This document shows, piece after piece, positions 23,001-55,694 of a stretch of 64,000 nt of DNA. The DNA is taken from the NCBI GenBank assembly GCA_004123355.1, contig SCHM01000003.1, forward strand, positions 4,297,058 to 4,361,057, given 5' to 3'. The first letter of the stretch is position 1, and each line of letters starts with the position of its first letter. Source of the DNA: Amphirosellinia nigrospora (Eukaryota; Ascomycota; Sordariomycetes; Xylariales; Xylariaceae). The translations under genes were made by a program, and so were the position numbers. The notes below the pieces were generated by a model, which saw nothing but the letters and a program-made list of their open reading frames with translations, was not told the DNA's origin and searched no databases.

Positions 23001-25325
23001 TGGATCATCAACCGAGAAGGTCATGTGACCGGTAAAGGCAGCGTCCGTCGTTTCTCAGTCAAAGTCGCGACGAGGGCCAAATAACTCCCGAAGGCTGTAT
23101 CATGAAAGGCTCTCTACGGCACTTGCGCGAACATAGCATTAGCATCAGCATCGGTATCGTTTCGTATCGCATCTGCTATGTCAAACACATCGTCGTCTCG
23201 GAGTTCCTTATCACATTACCAATCACTAGCCAAAAGTCTCGATCTGCTCTCTGCCACCAATAACGTCGCCGTCGGCGTTGGGAATGGCTTCTGAATGGTC
23301 GAGAAAGCAGCATGAGACTAGTATCATCGTCTCGAGCGTGGACTGATCCGGTGCCGTATCGCAAAGTGCAACAAGAGCTCATGGCCAGTGCCTGGCAGTG
23401 ATCTTTGTCATCCCTGATGTCCCGAGCAATAGGAAGCGCGACAAGACTTCCAGTGTCGTAGGCGCCGTGGTGTGCATGGCTCTAAGAGCGGTTAGGTAGC
23501 AATTCGCACCCAAGGTCGTCATGGTCATCGATGCCCAACCGCACCCACTTCGGTACAAAGGTACTTTATTCTCTACTTCTGACGGTTAGGGCACAACCGC
23601 GAATCGCTTTTCGGCAGCTATTATGTAGCTCCTAACGGAGTGATGCTCGTATAACGTCTATCCTCTGCGATCCTACCGTATTGGAGAAAAACTGGCATTC
23701 CACTGTCTCCCTTCCCGTTTCTGTCACTCGAACCAGCCAGCCAGTCGCATGCTCTGACTGATAGGCGGGCGTAACTTTCCACAGGGCGTCGTTGTTCTAC
23801 TCTCTGCTATACTTTGTAGAACCGGCTATACGTACTAATTCGCCTAGACAGCTCTGGAATTTGCCATCCCACGATAGCCATACAGATAACTGAGCGATGG
23901 CAACTTGATTCGCCAGGCTTTTAATAGAATACTGTAGAGACTCGCAGCTTGGTTTCCTGGTGTCCCAACTGTTGATACATGTACAATGTTCGAGACGATG
24001 GATAATGCAACAACGCACACAGAACAAGAACGGGAACGTATCGATCGTATCAGAAGCTGGAGCAACCAGTAGGTAGGTACTCGTTCAGTCAAGAGGCCGA
24101 CGGTTTTCCGATGCTCCTCACCTACTTTTTCACTTTCGGTGACAGTTATCTAGACGGTGGGGCCTTGGTAACGGCCTAAGAGTCTTGGCTAGCTAGGTAG
24201 AGAGGGTCACATCGACCGGAACAGCTTCCATATCGCTGTCCCTCGTACACCCCCCGTACACGGCCTCAACCCACGTCCTCAACCACCAACTCCAGCCCAC
24301 TCCAGCTCCTGTTCGTCAGCCGGAGGGTCTCATGGGTCTCATGGGCTTCTTCCCCACTGCCTCGACAGACATTCTTCTGGCAGTCCCCCGTCTCCGTACC
24401 ACTGCTGCTGCACCGCTATGAGGTACAGGATACTATAGTACAGATGTGCGATGTAAGTACGTACCTCGATCCATCCATCCATCCATCATCCATAGTCCGT
24501 AGCTCGAAGCATCCCTGCTGCAGTCATTCAGCGACCCAACTCCAACCTTTGGTGTGTCCCTCATTCCTTAAGTACCGCGAGCTTCCTCTTCCCCCGTCCA
24601 AATCGCGCCCCCGACTTCATAGTAACAAACATCTTCATTGTTGATATTGTCGAGATTTACGCCATCTCGCATCCCACTGCAGCCTCTAAGTCCTACGACG
24701 GCTTTGGACCAGTTTCTTCTTATTATCATTATTATTCCCCGCTCTGTTTTCGCTTAGATAAACGGATCGCTTCCGAGCACGTCTTGTAGACTCATCTGAA
24801 GAGAGTGTAAGTCGAAGGAAATTCAATTATGGTTATCTACTACCTATTTCCCTCCCCCTCCCCCTCCTTCTTCAACCAGACCACCACCCGGGTGTCCCGC
24901 TCTTACCACGACCGTCCCACACACTCCAAAATCCCCAACACCCACACACCACTGACACCTCAATACTACCTTGCACACTGCCCAACCTCTTTGTCTCTCT
25001 CCCATACGCATTACTTATTATACTCCCTCTACCCCCCTCGAGATTGTTCTTCTCCACTGTCTTTCCCAGACCTAAGCATCACATCTGCACACACCCTCTT
25101 GGCTATTGTCCCCGGGGCTTCAGGTCTCCTTGAAGACAAGACATCAAATTTCTGCATCGAATCATTCAATTTTTGCATTCCGTCTCGACGGCGTCATCGT
25201 CCTATATGACCAGTCTTCATACTAATACGACATATCCAACAGAGCTATACGCCAACCTCTTCACACAATACTCTTCAACATCCAAATAGTTCTCTGGTCA
25301 CAACAAACTCTCACAACCCTCAGCA
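20010..25325. other. 5.3 kb gene-poor region with possible coding relics
   Basis: No confident gene. Stretches that look protein-like but match no family I recognise are at about 20250-20429 plus (VARFEQANGVSGPTELVHT .. FVDKCTLATSHFLEHLDT), about 21900-22020 plus, and about 22940-23085 plus (GYPPQKPQGWSLAQIS). Frames are short and interrupted, so these may be relics or a gene hidden by base deletions. From about 24200 the sequence is pyrimidine-rich and is probably the promoter and leader of the bZIP gene. Confidence 0.45.
24469..24491. repeat. (ATCC)n microsatellite
   Basis: About five ATCC units (atccatccatccatccatc) lie upstream of the bZIP gene, in its probable promoter. Confidence 0.8.
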
Positions 25326-27174
25326 ATGGGCTCCACATATCAGCACATGCAGGCCTTTTACAGGCCTAGTCCTTTAACGGTGGACACAAGTCAGGCCCAG
25401 AAGTTCTTCGAGGAGGACGACGCCGGCATACTAGACGATGGTATCCTGGACCGGAATACCATCGACTCAGGCCTGGAGATGTCACCTCACATGGGCGACA
25501 GCCGGAGAGATTCTTTCGCCGTAGCAGGCGCACTATTCTCTCCCAAGACCGAGGATTGGCAGTCGGTAGACATGCAATCTTTGCCGTCGAACAACCCCTT
25601 CTTAGAGCCACAAAACAACAACCCGTTTACAAGGCCGGAGCCTACTCACGCCACCTACGGCTCGCATACTCAGCATTGGTCCATGGGGCATAGTTCTGGA
25701 ACTTGCACCCCCGTCCAGTACGATGGGCTTGAGGCTACTTATGATAACGGCCCATCCATCTTCCAACGGCCATTACCCATGCAAACTCCATTCAGCAATC
25801 CCACCGGCCATGTCCCATTGTTCTCTGCAGTCGGACCCAGCAACACATCCATGCCAACCTCCCCCCAGAAGGATTGGATGAGCACCGACTTCAAAGCCCA
25901 GTCTTTGAAGCGATCACAGGTCGAGAGCTCAGCCATCCGCTCACATAATGAGATGCGTCGTGGTGACGGCATCCGTAAGAAGAATGCTCGGTTCGATATA
26001 CCTGCTGAGCGGAACCTTGACAACATCGACACCTTGATCTCACAGTCCACAGATGACCAGGAGATCAAGGAGCTCAAGCAGCAGAAGCGACTCCTCCGCA
26101 ATCGGCAAGCTGCCCTTGACTCCAGACAGAGGAAAAAGCAGCACACGGAGCGACTCGAGGAAGAGAAGCAGTACACCGGCGTCATCTCTTCCATGGAAGA
26201 GGACATTGCGGATCTCAACGGGAAGCTAGCTCAACTCCTACGCGAGAAGGAATTCTTGCAGAACCACATCGAAGACCTTCGCTTGGAGAAGGAAGAGATG
26301 GTACAAACGCACACTATTGAGACTGGAGAGCTGCGCAAGAAGGTCAGCATCCTGACGGACCACGTCCAGCGACTTGAACACGCTACTATGCCGGTAACAA
26401 CGGGTTTGGCAACGGTTTCAACGACATGGACAACATCACCATGGATGGCACTTGGGACAACATGACTTACATGGAAGATTACACCATGGACACCGACGTC
26501 AAGCAAGAGGTGCAAATTGTTCACCAGAAGAAGACCGAGGTTACCCTCGCTACCGAGGTCGAGAAGCCCGCCACCCAAGGCGGTCTCCTCTTCATGCTGT
26601 TCCTGGTCGGCGCCTTTGTTCTTTCGAACCGGTCGACCCCAACCTTTCCTCGGGTGTCGGAAGACATGCGCGAGGCCTCAGCCAACCTGCTGAACAACAT
26701 CCTCAAGGATGTCGATGTGAGCCATGCCTCCAATAATGCGATCGAGCCTGCAGCTCCCCAGCCTTCTGGTGCGACATGGGCGACAACCGCTGCAGTGCCG
26801 ATGGCCAGCCACGTTATGGATAGTGTGGCCCCGTCGATGCTCGGAGATTTGGCAGACACCTCACACAGCCAACCGAACAGCAAGCCAATGAGCAAGTCTT
26901 CTCCCTCACACCGGCACAATACAATGGAATCACTTCACAAGACTTCATTCGCGCTCCGCAACCCCCTTCCACTGGCCACAAACGCCGCAACCTTGCCGAG
27001 GCCATGGCCAGCATGCGTCCCAACGAAAAGCAATCGGCGTCGGAGGTGTACACTCGATCTCTCCTCTGGGATCAGATCCCTGGCGACGTCGTACGCAACT
27101 TTGCCAAGATGGTGGCGGAGTGCAACGGCGCCGGCAATGGACAATCGGCCTGTAACGATGTTGCAAGCTCATAA
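25326..27174 (+). CDS. bZIP transcription factor with a putative membrane segment (two frame breaks)
   Basis: The start at 25326 (MGSTYQHMQAFYRPSPLTVD) follows a long CT-rich leader. Ser/Pro/Gln-rich N-terminal half. The basic region at about residues 255-275 is KRLLRNRQAALDSRQRKKQ, with the bZIP signature NxxAAxxSR. A leucine-zipper coiled coil follows (ADLNGKLAQLLREKEFLQN .. HIEDLRLEKEEM .. LTDHVQRLEH). After a one-base break near 26390-26400 the frame continues NNGFGNGFNDMDNITMDG, and at about residues 418-436 there is an uncharged stretch, GGLLFMLFLVGAFVLSN, flanked by charged residues. A second break near 26845-26875 leads to the terminal block QVFSLTPAQYNGITSQDF, TGHKRRNLAEAMASMRP and EVYTRSLLWDQIPGDVVRNF, ending at 27174. 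With two bases restored the CDS is exactly 617 codons. No family name is assigned. The hydrophobic stretch could be a transactivation element instead of a membrane anchor. Confidence 0.85.
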
Positions 27175-30100
27175 CGACTTACGAACATGTGACGACGATC
27201 ATGAATGAAAAAAACGACTCATTCCTCTACGCTTAAATTGATTCTATTATTAATCACCTCGATTCCTCTGCATATACTCGACGCTCCCGCGTAAACCAGA
27301 TCCATCACTGCTCACGCAACACCGGAATCTATGATCTACTTTATCTCGATTTCTTTCCATGTCCAGATTAGCAAGCGAGCCAGCATTTGAGTCTTTGTCA
27401 TGATTGATTTCATTTCTTGTGCCACACGATGATGCATCCATCGGTGCGGTATTACTTCTTTTCCTCTTTTCAACAGCACATTTTGGGTAGCGGTATGGCG
27501 AAAACGGCGGTTGGGACGGTGGTGGCAGGTTGGAGCCAACACAATTTCTTTGTACAATGGTCACGGGCATTGGGGAAACAGGACACATGACAGATGCTTG
27601 TCAATGCAGTGTGCCGGCAGCATCGACAGTCACAGATACGTATTTGGGAATTTCTCTTTTCATGGGGCTATTTGGTCCCACCTCCGCCAGAGACCGGAGA
27701 GAGAGAGAGCGCTATGAATTAGCAAGGCACGCACATATTTCGGTGTTTCTTGGGTTTGAAACACGACGAGATAATGTCTCACGACGCGAAATAGGTTGTG
27801 TCCTCAGACCGGACTTCGTGGTGGGGTGGCGGACTACGGAGACGAGCGACATGGGAGGCGGTATTGGTTTCATTATTCACTGGTTCTTCAACCGACATTT
27901 CCTTTGTTTTTTCATTTTGTTCGCGCAATATCCAATCATGGGTGGTATTCAACATTTTCGGGGCCGTATTTTCCACGACCAAACTTAAGAATGATGACCG
28001 TCGGGGGATATCGAAGGACGAGCAATTAGCCACAGTCAACAGTCGGCTTACTGGCTACTGGAAGGTGAAAAGAGGCATCGGAGTAGCTAACCGATATCTC
28101 TTGTCATGTTACATAACTAGTTAGCGATAGATAATTCCGTCAACAAATTCATATACCCCAAAATCCAAGTTCCAAACATGCATAGTGATCCAAATGCGAT
28201 GCGCCTGATCAAGATAGATTTTCGATATTAACGTTTGTAGTAAAGTGCCTGGTTCATCCAACACTCCAAAGCACCTGTAGCTGCACTGATGTACATGCGT
28301 CTATCCGTCGGTGGGCATGCAGTATGGATACGTTAGGTAAGTAGATAGGTACATATCATGCGAGCGCCGTGGCACATATGTCCAGTGTCTCCCAAAGTCC
28401 CAAAGTGAGCCTGATTCCTCCCTCCTAATTCTCCCTCGACAGTCCTCGTCAATACGTAACGATAGACTACCTAGTCTTGACACTAGACAGCGACAGCAAT
28501 TGCCGCGAATTGCGTGGGACAGTACTCTGCGACTTGCCCGGGGTACAACGACGCACTCCAAAACTCTTATTGTCTACCTATAGATAGGTGCGATATTCGT
28601 CGGCAGCACAGCATAAAGTACTGCAACCCACAGCTGCGGGCGTTGCTGTACGCTGCATGCAACCCCCTCCAAAGTCAAAGTCTCACACACACACGCCAGT
28701 GACTCCAGGGAAGCGTTCGCGAATCACTTTGGCGAAGCCCTGATCACACCCCCCACGCGCTGCACATGCGCCCACTCCGTCATACGGTAACGCTAGGATG
28801 GGCAAGTGGGTGGGCGTCACGGACGGGCGAGTGGCTGGGAATAAATTCGGGTGCGGTTACAGCTGCGAAACGTCTCTATAGGCTTACAGAATCCGGTGTG
28901 CCAAGACATGCTGCCCTCCCCCCCTCCCCGGTGTCTTGGTACTAATATATGACATGTACATGCTGCTTTTATGAAGGGTGATACATATCCAAGGAGCCCA
29001 GTAGGTAACATCCCGCGTAACGGGCTCGTCACGCACTGAGTCCTCAAAATGGAGGATATCGCTAAGGTAGGTATTGTCTGAGCCCCGATGCTGCTTAATT
29101 AGCGAGGTAGGTAACGCTTAGGTTAAGAGGTAATACAATGATTACAGCTTGGAATTTATGCAAGTTAGGCTGGGCTCGACCTAAAAGCGCCATAGCTTAG
29201 GTATAATTCCCGTTTCGATTAAGCTTGGTTCTAGCCGGTCCCTCCATTCTCCATCCCGCCGCAGGCGATCTCACATGTACAATCTAGCTTGTATGCAAAA
29301 GCGCGCGGGGCATGTCAGGTGTTCCGGTTTTGGACTTTTCTAGCACTATTCCCACTCCCCAGTCTCACTCACCCTCTCTCTCTGTCTCTCTCTCTTTTGG
29401 CCTTTATTGTTTCTTGGAGATCAATGCCTCATAAATACTATAGCGCTTACGAAGCGTGAATTTACAGACAACCTATGCTGCTTCATCCATGGTTTGAATG
29501 GGCATTGTACAAAATGCATCTTCCTTTCGGAAATACCTCGTGATGACAATATCTGACCATGGCTCTACACTGCCGCTGAGGGTACTTCATATTAGTCTCA
29601 GGCAGTCAGCCGAGACTCCTTCTAAATTGAGAGAGGCCTCTGACCACGCAAGGCACTTCAAAGCTAAACCGAGACAGTGGGCGGACATGGCCGTGACCAT
29701 CCATATACACTACTGTAGAGAGTATATTCTCGGCTCTTCTATCCACTCTTCACTCCTAGCTAGCTAGGTTTTGGAAACACTATAGCAGGTAAGCAGTCAC
29801 CAAGATTCAGTGAGACATATGAGTTTTGGATTGAATAGACACTACGTTTCATTAACCTCTTATCTTGGTTACCCGTGTCTCACACATGCCTTATACATGA
29901 TGTCAAGACGGTGACGGAAGGTTTATTTGGCTTATGTAATAGACCACCACTGGCACCGCTAAGATACTGGTGTCTTTGGTTGTTTGTTATCGAAGATAAT
30001 GTCTCTGGTCATGTACACACCCACTCGCGAAAAACCACACCCTCCTACCTAGGTACCTACTCCAATGCATGCAACTTTACCCAGCACTTGGCCCATCCCC

Positions 30101-43488: not shown

Positions 43489-45763
43489 CCGGCCGGTTCA
43501 TACTGGGTTGATGCACTAAAGACTGGCAGGCGAAACGCAGATTCTTAACCCCCGGGCCGCTGGAAGTGCACCTTTGTATATGTGCGGTAAGTGGATGTTA
43601 CGTCTTCCTTTTCATCACTCCCTTATCATTATTTTGATGGTCTGCTGATCTATTACCTGGATCATTAGCTGTATAAAAAAACTTAGAACACTTTTAGGAA
43701 AACCGAACCCGTCAGTTTAAAGTTGTATTGACCACATTAGCTATAGAACGATCATCAGGCCAAGAGTCGCACGAAGAATATTGTTGGTATGGCGAAGTGC
43801 CTAAGCGGCCAGTCCTACCACGATGGTTACCTTTACAAGCGCCGACTTCATCTTATGTTAACGTCTCACAGCCTAGTTTATTTAGGTTATATCATCCACT
43901 TTTAGAGATATAAGAGAACATAGGAAAGGCCATTTCCGAGCCCTCTACTCTTCATAGCTTAAATGCCACAATTTCAAAGACAAATGTAGGGAGTTCCTCA
44001 CGATCCTGACTCGGAAATTATTGGCCACTATATACTACTATTCTATAAGAATATGCCGTCGAGGCAAAAAGTCGACCACCCGATACCTGCTTGTTACGGA
44101 ATTTCGGTGCATGAGTCCCCTACCAGAGCTAGATTGCCCACTGACCAAGACTTGGCCTATGATGGGCAGCGGCTGATAATTGACGACTTCTCAGCGGGTG
44201 TCGAATAGGTCATCGCCGAAGAAATCACATCAATTCGAGGTGTTGCACTCGTCATCCAACTTTTTCTAGGTCACTCTCGGGTCACAATAATTGGGCGATG
44301 TTTATAGGCTCCTGGTATCCCACCTTATAAGGGAGCTATTGCGAAACCCTTTTTCTTCCGGAGCAAGGGAAGAATGAAGACAGGGGTTGGTTCTCACTCC
44401 AGGCGATCTGACCGCTAGGTTCTGAGAATAGGAACTCAAGGTCAGAACCGGATTTGTGGTAATATGTTGATGAAAACAAAAGTTCAGCTCTACCATTCAA
44501 TTCGGTAAAGCAGTATTTCAACATATGTGACGCGTTCCTACGAAAGTGGCTCTCTCTCCTTGAGTATCAGCCTCCGTGTCGCAGGTGGTAGGCTAGAGTT
44601 GCTCTCCGAAACTCATGACGATTGAAGAGCGATAGGGCAAACCGTTTCAGTTGCATCATTCTCTCCCTAAGCTTGGGAGCAGAAGGGCGCTTTATGCAGG
44701 GAGCTGTCCCTGCCGGACTAAGTTCTCGGGCGAAGGCGTTTGCGGTATAACATATTAGATGTTGGGGAACGGTAAGCAGTGATAGGGATAGACCATCTTT
44801 GTCGCAACTTGAGTAGAAATGATTCGGAGCTTAGGTAAGCCCCGAATTCTATGCCAATAGTTTGATACGATTACGTGGCGGGCATGTCGACGTCAATCAG
44901 TCTCTTGAAAATCCACAATATAGTGGAATATAAGGGGCCGAGATACTTTGTGACAATTCTTGTTTTTCTTACTCGCAAACAATTCCATTTCGTTCTTTGG
45001 ATTGTTGAGTTTTCCCTTATGTCATGCGAAAGGGGGAAAAAGCGATGAGTACATGGCTGTCGATCCGACTTCACATGCAAGGGCAGGAGGGATCCCTTAA
45101 ATAGGACTCTCCATTCAGTTCATTACACGAATGAATTCTTCGGCGGGGCCTGATGGCAGCAAATAAATTGATTTTCTGGATTCGTAGGCACGTGCTGGTC
45201 CAAGTCATTGGATGCGGCCATCTGCCAGTTCGCCGAATGGTAACACGCGGGGCAATGGACTCAGGCTGCAACACGTGGTGCTTGGGAGCCAGCAAGATAA
45301 GCTTTTGTGTGTCACCAGCAAGCGACGGTATAGTTGTCATGGTTGTCATGGCTGTTAGTGTTGGTGTTGGTGTTAGTGTGTTAGTGTGTTAGTGTTCGTG
45401 TTGGTCACCACCACTTTACACCACTTTACTTGGCCCTGAGCTCAAGAAGCAAAGGGAATGGTGTGGATCATCCCACGTCTCGTCTCGTCTCGGGCGTCGC
45501 GCAACAAACAAGAGCTATACAAGTTGCAGCCCTACGAAGACGGACTGAGATGGCACATAAGTACTCACACAGGGAACACAAAGCAGGGCCGAACATGGTC
45601 ATTTTCCCTACATGGTGAGGACGCTACGTTGCGCAACTTTAGTTTAGTATATCTGCCAAACGCTCTACCCGTCCCCTATTTTATTTCTCGTCTCAATAAA
45701 CACCAATACGCCCATCGAAGTTCGCCAATAAGCTACGGTTTTGTTTTCTTAGAGAGTCGCGCC
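43489..45763. other. 2.3 kb gene-poor region
   Basis: No confident gene. An open stretch of about 53 codons at 44052-44210 plus (VDHPIPACYGISVHESPTRA ..) may be a relic. A GTGTTGGTGTTAGTG minisatellite lies at 45354-45404. The last 350 bp before 45764 are likely promoter and leader of the next gene. Confidence 0.45.
45354..45404. repeat. GTGTTRGT minisatellite
   Basis: Imperfect tandem array of 6-8 bp GTGTTGGTGTTAGTG-type units. It is preceded by a doubled GTTGTCATG and followed by a doubled CCACTTTA. Confidence 0.8.
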
Positions 45764-47343
45764 ATGTCATCATACCCACCGCCCGGTTTCGTACCGCCAC
45801 GCCGGCGACGCCCCAATTTTCGGGCTATCCTTCTCAACTCCCAAACCGCCAACAGTTTTCGCGATCTCCACCACCGCAAGGTCACCTACCCCCAAACTAT
45901 CCTCCACTATACCCTCAACCATTCTCAAGTAGTCCCCGACGCTTGCGTTCTCCTCCACCACCATGTTCTTCTCCACTTTTGCATTATCAGCAACCAGCCA
46001 CAAGCCCTCCATATGAGTACCTCCTTGACGCCGCCTATACTACCAATTGCACCCAAGAGGTACAATATGGAGAACGGAGACGTCGCAATTCAAGCACGCT
46101 GCCCGGCGCCAATGGCTGCGCCAAAGTCCTGGATGTTGAGCTTGAGAAGCCCAAGAAGAAGTCACCAGCGGTTGCCGCACTCCTGGAGAAGCTGAGCCGG
46201 TACCCGACAAAGCAACCGGATCCTATTCCATATGGCCTGCTGCTTCACATGTTCCAGCACCTATACGGGCACATGTTAGATTCGGTCAGATTCGTAACCA
46301 GAGATCTCCTTCGAATCAGTGACCCGGACGAAGTTTCGTGCAGGGCTAAGATTTGCCGCTTCGACAAACGCGACACTTGGAGGGTGTACAAGTCACGACC
46401 AGGGGCCCAGGATCACTTCTATTGTGCGCCCCATATTGAGGTCACCTTGCCATTTTTCCCAACTCGCGCGGCGGCAAGAGAGATCATCGAGGCCGTTCAA
46501 GACACATGGGCGAGGCTCGGGAGACATATGCAACCCGCCTATAAATTCAAGACCCGGAAGTATTCGTGGAAGTTCGAGCCCGGGATGGTTTATGAATGCG
46601 TTGACGCAGATCATATGGTGCCGAAACTCGTCGTCAATGAAAGCGAGCATGACGAGAACAACTTGGAAGAAGACCAGCCATGCGAGCAACAAGACGAAGA
46701 GCTGACGCTGATCACCTGGCCGGATCAGAAGAGCGAGGAAGAAAGCCCTGGGATGAAGGAAGGGGGTGCGCTCAGAACTTTGGAGGAAGTCAAGCAAGAA
46801 ATACGAGACGGTCCAAACAAAACCCAGTGCAAAGAAACCATAAAGAGTTTGCTGGCGAATGCATTTGGGCTTGACATTCGACGGATATCGGTGTGGTTTT
46901 GGGTCAAGGAGGTTCAACTCAACGATCACAAATGGTATCCCTGGGGTAGCCTCGATAAGACATACGGCTTGGTAATTTCGACTCGAGAAGTGGTACTATA
47001 CAACGAGGAAGAGGCCAAGAAAAACGCCAGGAGGTATTCAAGATCCGGTCGCAAGGAGAAGGAGCCCCGAGATATCGCTCCCACGCTACGAATAGTGTTG
47101 CCGGTAGAGCGGACGAAGTTCGCCAAGGATGAGGAAAACGTGGAAGGGCTGAAGAAGTGCGTAGAAGAGATAAGGCTGCGATTGGCTAGTGCGTCTGTTT
47201 TGCACAGTCGAGCGGCCTTCTGTATCTCCTGGAACAAGGAGAAGAGAGAATTTGCAGACTGGTTTTCTCCCCAAGTCGTCTACAAGCACACTAAAGATAG
47301 CGACAAATATGTATTGGAAAGCGCAGGTGGTCGTGAGAAATGA
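45764..47343 (+). CDS. hypothetical fungal protein (about 526 aa, one frame break)
   Basis: Not recognised. The start at 45764 gives MSSYPPPGFVPPRRRRP. One missing base near 45810-45820 shifts the frame; with it the whole span is exactly 527 codons and continues as a Pro/Ser-rich tail (QFSRSPPPQGHLPPNYPP) into the uninterrupted frame at 45943. The folded part begins near residue 120 (KKSPAVAALLEKLSRYP) and has many aromatic residues: IPYGLLLHMFQHLYGHML, WRVYKSRPGAQDHFYCAPH, ITWPDQKSEEES (acidic linker), ISVWFWVKEVQLNDHKWYPW and LHSRAAFCISWNKEKREFA. There are no membrane segments and no zinc ligands in a clear pattern. It lies 468 bp upstream of the NLR gene on the same strand. A functional link is possible but unsupported. 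Confidence 0.7.
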
Positions 47344-47811
47344 TGGTCTACAGCATGGACAAGAGAGATAGAGAGAGAAGAAAATCCAACTTGAGAATCG
47401 GGTTAATCCATGTACGGATATATTGTAGTCGCTGTAAAACCAGCTCGGGCAATCTTGACGAGGAGATAGACTCCTTTTCGAGAATCATTTTAGGTTAATA
47501 ATGTAATCTACGTGTCATATATAGTCATATTTGACAATGTTTATTTTGATTCTAGAAACCGGTACTTACAGGTCGCACAGTTGCAGGCCGAACGCGGTAC
47601 CTACCTACTTGACGTGCCCTGGAGGTGGTGCCACAGGCGGTCGTTTGTTCCATCCCTGCCTGCACCTGCACATCTTAGGTAGCAAGGGATGACAGCCTTT
47701 CCAGCCTCAAAGTTTAACCTTATAAACACCTCCTCTTTGTCTTCCTCTACAAGTTACTGCGCGTTTATTTCGTACTCCGCGCTCTGTCACAAGGCTGCGT
47801 TTTTTTTGAAC
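47344..47811. promoter_or_regulatory. probable promoter of the NLR gene
   Basis: 468 bp. It contains GGTACCTACCTACTT at about 47597-47611 and TAGGTAG at 47674. No open frame of note. Confidence 0.45.
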
Positions 47812-50800
47812 ATGGCGCCAAGACACGCTCTGTAAGGAACTTCCAACCTAATTTTAATGACGTTCTTGGTATTCTGACTGTTCAAACCAGAATCGTGCTT
47901 ATCAACGGCATAGAGTGTTGCAATGACTTTCTAGGTGCAAGCAATGAAGCCGAACACGTGAACCGAAAGGCCGCAATTCTGGAGCGGTTTCCCGGCTCCA
48001 GAGTCATAGAGTTCAATGCATTTCCGGGCCCGGAGGTTCGATCGAACTTCCCAATGGATGATTGGATCAGACAAAGCGCCATGGAAGCGTTGCAAGATTT
48101 AGAAGATGCCTCTCAGGTATATATACTACTTTTCCTCTCCTCGTTAAACACGTAATTTCGGAAATTAACTGCAGTAGAACACCCTTTCTTCTCAGCCGAT
48201 TGTCTTCATTGCAAATAACATAGGTGTTGCATTAGCGAAACAAGTAAGCAAATATATGTGAGGTTCGGGAGTCTTCAGCCTTCTGACCAGCTAGCAGATG
48301 ATACTGCTCACCTTCAACGGTAGCAACACTTTTGTATCGGCTTATCGAATTGTGGCTATGGTACGCTATCTTTGATGCAATTTCTTAGATATTTTTTATC
48401 TCACCTGCGACAACTTCATTAACTGGCCTGCAGTTTTTCGCCGGCTACCCCGATGTCAACGGCACGATACAACACCGTCATTACCAGCAATTAATATCTA
48501 AACTCTCACTGGACAACGCGCACAGACTTTATTCCGAAACATTAACGGGAATGTTCAATATACTGCCTGGCGTTCTCTCTACGATAGATAGCGAGTTTGC
48601 TACCGTTGATGTTAGATATTGCCCAACATATGTAAGTGCATGTCTTGCTCGAGATTCATATTAAACCCTTGCCGCCGCCTGTTATCGACTGGAAGGTATT
48701 GCACGAGGAGGCATTGGGTGACAACATGAACACCACCTGAGCTACGTTGATATGAGAAATTATACCACTTAGCTGACGGCCAACTAGCTACCATGTCTTC
48801 CGTTGAGCCTCGAAGATTTCTTCCCTGAATTGGAGCAGGCATTTTATACAATCGATCATATAATATGCAGAGAACACACTCGTATGTATTCGCTTCTCCC
48901 ATTGTGTGGCATTGAACTGAGCCGGGTATAGAACTTTTACCAACGTACACGTTGTTTTTACAATGTGCCAAGGAAATGGCTTCGGAACTTCGAAGACCTG
49001 CACTTCCTCGAGAGAACATTGATTCAGCTGCATGGGTGCTGAACCACACCACTTTCAAGGAGTGGAGGGAACTAGGTTCGTCCCCACACTCTTTATCAGT
49101 GGCCCGCCAGGTTTTGGAAAGAGAATGTTGTCATGGTCTCTTCCATATCTCTTAAACGCCCAGAACCAAAAGATAGGGAACGGTCAGAGGGAACTTTACC
49201 TGGTGTTTAACTTTGGCCGCTGCAATACCCGGCTCGATATAGAGCAGAACCTTGTTATGTCTCTTGTCTACCAGTGTCTCGCTCTACGACCACAACTCTT
49301 CCAAAAGGCCAAGGCGATGTGTCAGTTAATACGTAATCTTCGCCCCGGGTCCGTCTCCTGTAGCCGATTGTGGTCGCTTCTTCTCCGACTATTATTGTTC
49401 TCGGACGATCACCGGATATATCTGATCCTGGTTGATATAGATCAAATCCAAGGGGGGCGAATTGGCCCGTTGGACATCTTCAATAGCCTACATCAGCTTA
49501 CCACCAGTTTGATGATGCCGGAGAAACTCAGGATCTTAGTAACAGGGCGCGCTATCGTTAAAACGGAATCTGACCAGCCGATGCAAATAGACTTAGCCGA
49601 TAGCGAGGAGTCGAGAGTCGCCATCCAACGAGCTTTGTTCCAGACAGCTTTGAAGATTATGTCAAAAAGACCAGCTTGGAGGGGTCACTTCGAGGAAATC
49701 ACTGAGAACCCTTGTTTTTCTGATTCAAGCTACTCCGACACTATGTTGAGAATTGCATTGCTGGAGCACGCCACGGTTCAGTCCACGAGAACCTCGTTAA
49801 CACAAGCCCTAAAATCAGTTGAGTCGATCAGCTCAACTGACGGGTTATATCAACTCTTGCTTGACAATCTTGATAATTTCAGCCTGGTTAGGGAAGCCCT
49901 TAATTGGATCTTTCATGCAACTCGGCCCTAACGATACCCGAGCTGTCAGTCGCAATAACACTGTCCTCTATCTACGAGAGCAACGGGAACGGAGCCATAG
50001 GGTTCTCAGAAGACGAAAATATGATGAGATTGCTCGAGGATAATGTATCCTGGGATCTTAGAAGGGATCTTGAGGGCATTTTTGACAAAGTTATCGAAGT
50101 GGTCGGCTCTATGGGCAACGTCCGCATCATCCACAACAGCTTTCGGCAATATTTTATGAGTCGCGCAGATTTAATTATTCCCGACTTCCACTCAATCGCC
50201 ACTGAAAACTGTATAGCTTACCTTTCAGCTGCTTCAAAACAGGAGGGTCTCGGGGATCCTTCAAGGGCGCTCGAATTCCTTAGCTATGCAGACCAGAACT
50301 GGCCTGAACATTACAAGTTATCGGAGCCAAATCAATGGCTAGATCAGGCGGTCTTTAGATTCCTGGGATATGAAGGACAAGCCTGGGTTGACAGGTTCCT
50401 GACTAATGCCGGTGATATCTCGGATGCGGTTGGGGGAAGCCCCCTGGCGATGATGGCAGAGCGAGAACTAACTAACATAGTGAATAGTATGGAGCCGGGC
50501 CTCCACTCACCCGTGATAGAGGCCTGGGAATCCGAAGTGGCCCTTAAAGCGGTAATATGGCGCAACGACCTTGGCATGTTTGGAAAACTTCTGACTACGG
50601 TAATGCCCTTTCTAGAGCCCACATCTCTGCAGGATTGCCTCCAAGTGGCTTCTGAGAGTGGTCGTACCGAACACGCCATCATGATTCTCTCACGTCTAGA
50701 TGTTAGTGACGTCGATACCCTAGCAAAATCACACGAGTCCCCTTGTTTGGTTGCTGCAAGAAATGGCCACATGGAGACAGTAGAAGCGCTGCTGGACCGA

Positions 50801-53800
50801 CTACCCGAGGAGGCCATCCTGCAAACAGACTCGTCGTCTCGCACGGTATTTCACTGGGCAGCTGCGTGGGGGGATGTGAACGCCCTGAGAAGTTTAAGCA
50901 GGCGGAAAGGCGCAGGTGCTAAAATACTTTCAGTTGGCTGGATGACTTCTACGCCACTGTGCTTAGCAGCCGCGGCGGGATCGGTAGAAGCCGTCAAGTT
51001 TCTATTGGGATTCTCGAAGGAGTTGCTCCCGAAGAAATATAATGACATCTTAGCTGTCATACGCATAGCCGTCGAAGAAGGCCACGAAGATGTCGTGAAC
51101 ACATTAATAATGGCCAGGGCGGATGCGTGGCTTGTGGATGAAGATAGCGGAGACGCCAACAACCTTCTCAATCTAGCAGCGGAGGCCGGTCATCTGTCCG
51201 TATTTTCCCTGCTTGTAGACGAGATAAAAACCAGTTTGGGAGAAAACTCCGGTCGGAGAGAAGGCCGAAAGAGGTCTGTCAATCGGTCTGACGGCTCACT
51301 CTTGAAGTCGGCAGTACTCAGACTAGTGCTCGATTCGAGTTTGAACGTAGCCGCACGCGCTGGGCACAAACATATCGTTCACTACATTCTACACGAGGGT
51401 GGCAAATATACCCCCACAATAAGACTCGGGTTCTTGATACGGAATTACTTTGAATCGGATTGCAACGACACGGTCAGGATCATTCTCAAGGAGAAAGGGG
51501 ACCTCATAAAAGTGGAAGGAGCCGGTTTGATATTGCTAGGGGGTGCCATAAAAGCTAGGCGACCGGATCTAGTGAAGTACATGATAAATACTATGGCTGG
51601 AGAGCCACTTAAGGCTTCGAATGTAAATTTTCGATTTGGAGGGAATTTGTTGCATTATACGGCGTGGAGTGGCCATCGTGCAGTGATGCGGGAGCTACTA
51701 CAACACCCTACAGCAAGTCTACTCCTACAAGACTCGAACATCTCGGGTGGCAAGCCCTTAGATGTTGCTGTATTGAATGGGCAAGAAGGAGTCGTGAAAG
51801 AAATATTGTGCATTAGCAAGGGGCGGCGGCAGTTTCGGACTATCTTCAGGGCGATTAAGACCAAACGGGTGTCGATGGTGAAGCTCCTCCTAGACAATGG
51901 GTGGGAGGCTAGCTCTCGGGATGGACACGGCAATACGCCTCTGCACGCGGCTATTGAAACCGGACAAAGTGGAACAGCCCAGCTCTTACTCCAAAGGAGC
52001 GACCCGGCATTATTAAATGAACGGAACAATGCCGGCGACACCCCGTTGCATATCGCCGTGTCCAAGAAGGATAAACATATCGTCAGGTGGCTTCTCGATA
52101 ATGGCGCAGATCCAAACGTCTTGAACTCGATCACAGGCTTGTCGCCATTACATTTGCTATGCAAGTTAGGGGATGAGGATGTGGAAGAAATGATTAAAGA
52201 ATTTCTCTCGACCGAAACCGGCATTAGAGAAACCGGCGGTGTGCTTCGTCAAGTGACAGATTTTAATCTGCCTGCGGCCGACGGCTCAACGCCACTTCAC
52301 TATGCCGTAGGCTTACGGAACTTTAGTTTTATCAGAGCCCTCTTGAAGCACAGTCCGAACCTAAACGCCGAGGGCACTGAGGTCAGAGCAGAAAGGCTAG
52401 GCATAGAAGTGATCAAGCTACTCCTCAATTCCCAGGCAAACACAGACCCGAGAAAAACGGATCGTGAGAACAAGCCAGCACTAGACATAGCTATTGACAA
52501 GGAAGAGTGGTCCATCGTCAAAGAGTTGGTCGACGCTGGGGCTGAAGTTAACCCCAAACACAATGGAGACAACCCGACTCCGTTATATGCCGCGACGTTA
52601 AAGGGCAACCTACCAACGGTCGAGCTTTTATTAAGCAAGGGAGCCGATCCCCATGTCTCTGGACAGAGCTCGTTACCTGCATTCGAGCTTGCCCTCGCTA
52701 AGGGGTACGAGGATATTGCAAAGGCTCTCTTGAAGTCAGACAACTTTGACGTCAGCAAAGACTCAGCACCGTATAGCTTCGGTTCACACTTACATGCTGC
52801 CTTGTGTACAGGGATGTGGGAGATATTTCACATCCTCGTGGCGAAACGAGCAAACACTGAGCAGAGCGCGCCACCCTATGGAAAACCTATTCATGCGGCC
52901 ATATCTATCGGCTACGACTTCGAAGATGCTCAATCACTTGTCGAGAACCTTGTTGAAATTGGGTCACAGATAAATGACAAGAATATCAGTGGCCGCACTG
53001 TTCTTTCTCTGAGCGCAACAGGGTACCCTGATTCAGACCTTGCCTACCTGTTGAATCTCGGCGCGAACCCAAACATACCCGATCAACTTGGATCTACACC
53101 TTTACATTATGCCGCGCAAGCCGGTGCAAAAGATAACTAGAGAGGTTTATTGAGGGTGGAGGGGATGTGAGGAACAAAGATAAGTGTGATCGAAGTGTCT
53201 TATACCGAGCCGCAGGGAGCGGCGACCACGACACGTTTATGACGGTGATGAAGAATTTACCAGAAGATTGCCGGAAGGATCATCTGGCTTCAGCCATCTT
53301 CCCAGCGATTGCAAGAAGAGCATCAGATATAGTGAAGACTATTCTCGAAGAGACTACGATCTGCGTCGATGCCCGCGATCGCAATGGATGGACGATTCTA
53401 GAGGTTGCGGAAGCCTATGGAGAGAAATCAATCCTTCGTCTTCGTGAGAAAACTGGAGATTCAGTTGAGGCGAATCGAGCGGAGAAAGTTTTGCCATCCG
53501 CATGGTCTGCAAAAGACATAGGGCCCAGGATCCGGCTGTTTGAAAACGACATGGGAGGCTCTATCAAAGGTTCGGCCTAAACTCGTCCTATTGCCTTCAG
53601 GCACTGCTAATAGTCATTTAGGTGCAATTGAGCCGCTCGCTAATATTGGACCAACCAACCTACGAGCGAACGCTTGCATGTGCCCTGATCCCGACACAGG
53701 TGTCTTTTACTTCGAAGTGACAATCTTTCAAGCTAAGTAAGTCTACTGGTAGCCCCAAAAGCCCGATAAAGCTTAAAAAATAGAACACTCTGTGATTATA

Positions 53801-54483
53801 AGGACAACTGCTGATATATATTGGCCACGTAACTAGTCTCGTCTGTGTCGGCTTCTGCGAAGAATACATGATGCTGGACGAAACGGTAGGCCTAGTCAAA
53901 GGGAGCTGGGGTTACCACTCGGACGATGGCCGCGTTTACTGGTTCGTTCCTTAAAGTCTTTTCTACCCCCTTTTGACAATTTTTGGCCTCAGTTGCTCCT
54001 GCATACCCGCGAGACATTGGTCAAATTTTGCCCTTTATGGTAATTACTGACTCTAGTGGTTAAATAGGGGCAGCACGCAGAAAACGAAGAACTATGGCTC
54101 AAGCTTTAGTTTGGAAGATCGGGCGAGAGGGCAGGAGGCTGTTATTGGATGCGGAGTGGATTTCCGAAACAGAGTGGCCTTCTTTACTATTGATGGGGAG
54201 AACCAAGGTAAGCACACATCTTAACCTTTAAGCTTGCCTTGTTCTAGTTCTGCTCGGCATCCATTCTATGCTGCAAATAGCTGACGGGTTTCCAGGGAAC
54301 GTGTTTGATAATATCCACGGGCAGCTATACCCAGCTGTTTCACTGGTTCCGGGAACGAAGGAATCTCGCGTGCTTGTGAACTTTGGGGCACAGCCTTTTC
54401 GGTATAATTTGAAGGACCGAAAAGTTAGTTCTAGGCGATTAGTGAAGCCGTATAGGCGGCGTTTGAACCGAATCAGCCAATAA
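47812..54483 (+). CDS. NLR-like receptor: esterase-like domain, NACHT, ankyrin repeats, SPRY
   Basis: Large STAND/NLR protein (roughly 1900-2000 residues). The N-terminal alpha/beta-hydrolase-like domain (SesB/DUF676 type) runs FGPEVRS-like segments into QPIVFIANNIGVALAK (48196-48243) and FFAGYPD (48434). Introns: 48117-48195, 48244-48297, 48361-48433 and a larger one after 48632. The linker ENIDSAAWVLNHTTFKEW leads to NACHT: P-loop FISGPPGFGKRML (about 49100), Walker B RIYLILVDIDQI, sensor KLRILVTGRA, winged helix ALNWIFHATRPLTIPELSVA and RIIHNSFRQYFM. Ankyrin repeats fill about 50500-53500 (GNTPLHAAIETGQSGTAQLL, GDTPLHIAVSKKDKHIVRWL and more). The C-terminal SPRY spans spliced exons: FYFEVTI, VGFCEEYMMLDETVG, GSWGYHSDDGRVYW, VIGCGVDFRNRVAFFTIDGE, GQLYPAVSLVPGTKES; introns 53737-53836, 53942-54067 and 54208-54295. 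One-base breaks lie near 47820, 49065, 49928, 53136 and 53560. Exons at 48630-48950 are unresolved. Confidence 0.85.
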
Positions 54484-55176: not shown

Positions 55177-55694
55177 ATGTCTACCAATGATATGGTTACT
55201 CTCCTCAGCAGTGACAATGTTGAGATACAGGCAACTTATAAAGCCGTTCAACAATCTATAACTATCAATACTATGCTCGAGCTCCTTGACGAAGAGCTCA
55301 CAAAGGGCCTTCCCATCCCCGTTCCCGGGGTCGAAGGTGAGACTTTGAAGAAAGTAATGGAGTGGTGTGAAGCTCACCGAGACGACCCCGTCACCAAGCC
55401 GAACGACAAGCCAACCAAAGCAGTATATGTAAGCCACCTTCCCGAATGGGAACGTTCCGGTTACTTCGACTGTGACAAAAACTTACTTATCGAGGTTGCG
55501 AATGCGGCTAATTATTTGGAGATCCCCTCCTTCTCCAGTACACAGTCTTCTTAATTGCTCGCCGTCTAAGAGGAATGAGTACAGAACAGATGAGGGAGTA
55601 TCTAAACATTGAGAACGACTTTTCTCCCGAGGAAGAACAGCGCATTCGCTTAGATAACGCATGGGCTATGAAAGCAGCGCATCCGATTAGATAG
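55177..55694 (+). CDS. divergent SKP1 paralogue (one frame break)
   Basis: SCF ubiquitin-ligase adaptor family. The start MSTNDMVTLLSSDNVEIQ aligns with the SKP1 N-terminus. The POZ-like part has SITINTMLELLDEELTKGLP, IPVPGVEGETLKKVMEWCEA and HRDDPVTKPNDKPTKAVYVS; then FDCDKNLLIEVANAANYLEI. The frame stops early at 55554, but one missing base near 55529-55535 restores PSFLQYTVFLIARRLRGMS, TEQMREYLNIENDFSPEEEQ and RIRLDNAWAM, the SKP1 C-terminal helices that contact F-box proteins. Restored length is 172 residues (519 nt), normal for SKP1. It differs at many positions from canonical SKP1 (for example no CKTVANMI), so it is a paralogue, and may bind fewer F-box proteins. No intron, whereas typical fungal SKP1 genes have several, which hints at a retro- or accessory copy. 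Set in AT-rich DNA beside the NLR gene. Confidence 0.8.

Follow-up and report, generated by a model that had tools for sequence, protein, structure and literature searches.

Fungal NOD-like receptors (NLRs) that join a NACHT domain to ankyrin repeats are among the closest described counterparts of the gene analysed here. It lies on the plus strand at about 47.8-54.48 kb of a 64,000-nucleotide stretch of the Amphirosellinia nigrospora genome (the window; G000:C5:4297058-4361057, in an assembly of 48.1 Mb and 11 contigs). A PLoS Genetics 2025 survey (PMC12258605), which is drawn on here, like the other papers cited below, through portions of its text, gives 46 Sordariales NLRs with a SPRY domain that is C-terminal without exception and accompanied by ankyrin repeats in every case. 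A sensor role is proposed there for these proteins, in parallel with the teleost NLR-B30.2 receptors. In a literature search on fungal NLRs, the combination of NACHT, ankyrin repeats and SPRY was found in this survey alone; ankyrin repeats and SPRY in fungi in general led to a single genome paper, on nematode-trapping fungi. The searched text of PMC9815663 contains no SPRY.

The window gene resembles the Sordariales SPRY-NLRs in its nucleotide-binding domain, ankyrin array and C-terminal SPRY domain, the parts that were compared. Its domain order is the same as that of the SesB-like/NACHT/ankyrin NLRs of PMC4986451, but it lacks their elbow Ser, its P-loop is non-canonical and a SPRY domain has been added. 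It shares with the teleost receptors the NLR character and a SPRY-type domain at the C-terminus, with a presumed role in ligand binding (PMC12258605), although those are animal NLRs and the window gene has an ankyrin array; the likeness is one of layout and does not imply descent. The hydrolase-NACHT-ankyrin-SPRY layout is not new. The preliminary description rightly called it less common, but the 46 Sordariales NLRs had already been published. With the window gene, a fungal NLR of the ankyrin-SPRY kind has been read in detail. It is probably a single gene encoding, in order, a SesB-like hydrolase domain, a NACHT domain of the NPHP3_N type, ankyrin repeats and SPRY, and would be a sensor whose catalytic sites are weakened or lost.

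Domain organization

Open frames, spliced exons and profile matches together give the order of a hydrolase-like part in four exons, NACHT, ankyrin repeats and SPRY. A linker into the NACHT domain (LPRENIDSAAWVLNHTTFKEW, 48916..49080) is read from open frames, with a frame change following near 49.08 kb. The NACHT NTPase (49083..49550) matches the NPHP3_N profile (PF24883) with 45.2 bits against a cut-off of 24.8, while a genome search with the older NACHT profile PF05729 at E<=0.001 gave no match inside the window. Downstream of it, a winged-helix-like region (49870..50200), recognized by reading only, has a frame change near 49.93 kb inside it. The ankyrin array (50732..53472) is matched twice by Ank_2 (9.8e-80 and 1.8e-6), so that the canonical C-terminal repeats of a fungal NLR are present; 19 repeat matches score above -2 bits against a typed consensus, and no tandem repeat was found in the array at the DNA level. 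The SPRY domain (PF00622) is C-terminal in the same protein. The final ankyrin repeats run unbroken and in frame, within the exon 53137-53569, into LPSAWSAKD, a SPRY start of the RanBPM type.

The gene therefore contains NACHT, ankyrin and SPRY domains with an in-frame join between the last two. The three profiles and the shared exon bear out the claim of the preliminary description that these domains belong to one fungal NLR gene, and the profile search set beforehand as a check found both NACHT (1.5e-11) and SPRY (1.4e-16). An ankyrin NLR adjoining a separate SPRY gene might be suspected from the frame change near 53.14 kb and the possible intron at 53570-53600. However, the exon 53137-53569 reads in a single frame through ankyrin repeats into the beginning of SPRY, and the published SPRY-NLRs always have ankyrin repeats (PMC12258605). 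A second SPRY-NLR of this genome (L023, G000:C1:13.57 Mb), with a SPRY match, NPHP3_N (8.8e-9) and ankyrin repeats, has on its own strand the same domain order, read across several frame changes. Separate ankyrin and SPRY genes appear very unlikely.

Hydrolase-like N-terminus

The hydrolase-like part is the weakest of the domain assignments. It is suggested by collinear resemblance to SesB-like genes elsewhere in this genome and by an intron position that they may have in common. Exon 1 (47813..48116, in the open frame 47718-48155) is collinear with some of these genes. There is no in-frame ATG ahead of its FPMDDW stretch, and the ATG at 47812 runs into a stop after seven codons. Exon 2 (48196..48243) contains the nucleophile elbow, PIVFIANNIGVALAKQ, with Asn in place of the Ser of an HS.GG elbow; its phase-0 donor is the same as in 3 of 11 SesB-like elbows of the genome. 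Exon 3 (48298..48360) is read from splice signals, and exon 4 (48434..48631), assigned by reading, contains FFAGYPD..., which we take to be the counterpart of the FFGTPHRG strand. The hydrolase part gave no Pfam family at E<=1 and no PDB hydrolase at E<=10, a weak test, as the Ser-bearing SesB piece L039 is also without a Pfam match. The esterase-like N-terminus proposed in the preliminary description may be indicated by collinearity and the intron place, but finds no profile match and has Asn at the nucleophile position of its elbow.

The elbow reads IANNIGV in the window gene, with no Ser, and the second SPRY-NLR has Gly at the nucleophile position. All 12 SesB elbows compared in the genome keep a nucleophile, Ser in 11 and Cys in one. 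Eleven of them are the distinct elbows of one genome match list, including that of L088 (L089 and L090 have one pair of elbows in common), and the twelfth comes from L097; the set leaves out L092-L096, L099 and L100, and L098 is the same gene as L086. Loss of the nucleophile in 2/2 SPRY-NLRs against 0/12 comparators, with Cys counted as kept, corresponds to odds of about 0.01, counted by hand and post hoc with non-random comparators. Because Asn occupies the nucleophile position, the esterase-like domain of the window gene is likely to be a pseudo-enzyme. The Cys-bearing elbow, GHCLGG, is in L089 (plus strand, 1738), where a second SesB-like gene adjoins on the other strand.

P-loop of the NACHT domain

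The P-loop of the window gene, GPPGFGKR (49101-49124), keeps the Lys but has Arg where Ser or Thr is expected, and so departs from the canonical GxxxxGK[S/T]. At the same place the second SPRY-NLR has TPQDIGSA. Among 33 other NACHT loci examined, 31 retain Lys-Ser/Thr (30 with GK[S/T] and one with CKT). The 33 comprise 13 strong or ankyrin-linked loci, all with Lys then Ser/Thr and one in which Cys replaces the last Gly, and 20 weaker matches (E 5.8e-19 to 7.2e-8), which were added because the first 13 were strong or ankyrin-linked, and in which GK[S/T] is present in 18, L072 and L076 being without it. A degenerate P-loop thus occurs in 2/2 SPRY-NLRs against 2/33 others (odds of about 0.01, again by hand, post hoc and with non-random comparators). 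Non-canonical P-loops recur among fungal NLRs, as far as the available text of PMC4986451 describes them. Since such variants are known, GPPGFGKR lowers the case for an active NTPase more than that for NLR membership. The non-canonical P-loop is variation that has been seen before, yet it is present in both SPRY-NLRs found in the genome.

L072 and L076, for their part, lie away from the SPRY matches, and the L076 match is inside a frame of 1382 codons. In the whole genome 111 NPHP3_N matches were found, indicating a large NLR-type repertoire, although each exon or frame piece counts separately and the genes are fewer.

It is improbable that the window gene encodes a normal NLR with full competence, whose P-loop works despite the Arg and whose hydrolase relies on a different residue. 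The retained Lys and the recurrence of non-canonical P-loops (PMC4986451) would agree with this, but the conservation of Lys-Ser/Thr in 31/33 other loci and the Asn at the nucleophile place argue against it. In a sensor with weakened or lost catalytic sites, the ankyrin array and SPRY domain would bind a protein ligand, either non-self or modified self, and binding would change the oligomeric state of the NACHT domain. The N-terminal domain would then hand the signal on by contact rather than hydrolysis, which is the more likely route because both catalytic sites are degenerate.

A broader proposal is that the SPRY-NLRs of this fungus form a sensor class, which would have taken a SPRY domain of the RanBPM/Gid1 type as bait, lost its own hydrolase and NTPase sites, and might work through a catalytically competent NLR, in the way that plant sensor NLRs carrying integrated domains depend on helper NLRs. 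In the plant sensor/helper pairs RGA4/RGA5 and RRS1/RPS4, the P-loop is required in the helper and not in the sensor (PMC9528088, in the part available). The proposal is unlikely. No second NACHT match lies within the window, and a class can hardly be defined from a pair of genes; both points weigh against it. The window gene nevertheless raises the question of whether SPRY-NLRs are catalytically inert sensors.

Frame changes

The window gene has frame changes near 49.08, 49.93 and 53.14 kb, and perhaps another at 53570-53600, unless a 31-nt intron lies there. In related genes, pseudogenes and frameshifts in WD40 repeats are described in the accessible text of PMC12222747. A decaying NLR pseudogene, in which relaxed selection accounts for both the frame changes and the lost catalytic residues, would fit the three to five frame problems, the altered elbow and P-loop residues and the similar losses and frame changes of the second SPRY-NLR.

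The rate of such breaks in the same assembly was obtained from conserved genes. A break was counted where neighbouring matches in different frames abut within 5 profile positions and overlap by 4-19 bases in the genome, which leaves no room for an intron; junctions showing a gap or overlapping further are omitted. HSP70 genes gave 6 breaks in 20 matches (11,703 matched bases) and CCT-type genes 5 breaks in 25 matches (14,211 matched bases), making 11 breaks in 25.9 kb, or about one per 2.4 kb. L030, L044, L045 and L046 each align in a single frame, while frame junctions are seen directly in L029 (excess -1) and L041 (-4 and -1). As it is not credible that every HSP70 and CCT gene is dead, such breaks are assembly noise in general. 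Over the 5,851 bases of the window gene 2.5 breaks are expected and 3 are seen (P(>=3) 0.45, P(>=4) 0.24, P(>=5) 0.11). Assembly noise at this level suffices to account for the frame changes, and since HSP70 and CCT genes break at a like rate, the breaks in the window gene are no evidence of decay. The frame 49904-53140 is moreover open for 1078 codons, and the P-loop Lys, the splice signals and the SPRY core are retained. Decay is thus unlikely, while still deserving weight as an explanation. Gene models built on this assembly should be polished, and frame breaks in them must not be taken as pseudogenes. Split conserved HSP70/CCT genes can be seen, for example, at C8:855379-857197, C7:1398639-1400274 and C1:3159051-3160463.

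Origin of the SPRY domain

The SPRY domain is encoded in five pieces. The first (53491..53569) continues the reading frame of the final ankyrin repeats. The second (53601..53736), found by profile, follows a 31-nt gap, which represents an intron of very small size or else a further frame change. The third (53837..53941) carries GYHSDDG, the fourth (54068..54207) is again found by profile, and the last (54281..54483) includes the stop. The domain matches RANBP10 (3.2e-12, with the alignment beginning at the first residue) and RANBP9 (3.7e-11) across residues 1-200, a span that takes in the LPxxWS start.

Four SPRY matches were found in the genome, in the window gene and L023, both NLRs, in the RanBPM-like L025, and in L024, which from its sequence we take to be Ssh4-like. 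L025 has a SPRY match of 1.2e-26 and a LisH score of 20.6 bits, just below the cut-off of 21.6; a further piece of it is without a match. The window SPRY domain is nearest to that of L025 (41% over 85 residues), followed by L023 (36% over 64 residues), and shows no match to L024. The GYHxDDG segment is present in the window gene, L023, L025 and RANBP10.

Two introns are common to the window gene, L025 and L023. A phase-2 intron (53737-53836 in the window) lies between strands, in the loop that follows FEVT; this loop is unequal among the three, with 4, 7 and 8 residues after EVT, so that the agreement is in phase and loop only. A phase-1 intron (54208-54280) after the (N/D)GxxxG/A segment is placed the same to the residue in all three. 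L024, by reading, runs through both places.

RanBPM/Gid1-type proteins are ubiquitin-ligase subunits. The window SPRY domain shares with RanBPM, RANBP9/10 and Gid1 the LPxxWS start and the GYHxDDG segment, and its two introns match those of the RanBPM-like gene of this genome in place and phase. It differs in that the window frame ends at 54483; LisH and CTLH domains past the SPRY domain were not searched for. In both similarity and gene structure the domain is nearer to RanBPM than to other SPRY domains of the genome, with two non-NLR SPRY genes as the only comparators, and it is RanBPM-like in character. The simplest account is that the domain was probably captured, introns included, from a gene of the RanBPM/Gid1 type. 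With one RanBPM-like and one other SPRY gene compared, such a capture would be a supported proposal, short of proof. One observation counts against it: the best PDB match of the window SPRY domain is a secreted SPRY protein, 7 bits above RANBP10. Among the 12 of 114 papers listed, no title or abstract opening was found that points to a RanBPM origin of an NLR SPRY domain, and a report may exist elsewhere. Similarity and shared introns thus offer an origin that can be tested.

Neighbouring genes

Just upstream of the NLR gene, a plus-strand open frame of 547 codons (45700-47343) has no Pfam family at E<=0.01. Farther upstream is a bZIP gene (25290-27208, plus strand) with an apparent frame change near 26.4 kb, perhaps assembly noise or an intron. 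A Skp1-like gene (55177-55694, plus strand; Skp1_POZ 1.4e-12, Skp1 1.2e-18), read in two frames, lies 0.7 kb 3' of the NLR gene, and a genome search for Skp1 gave one other match, on contig C1.
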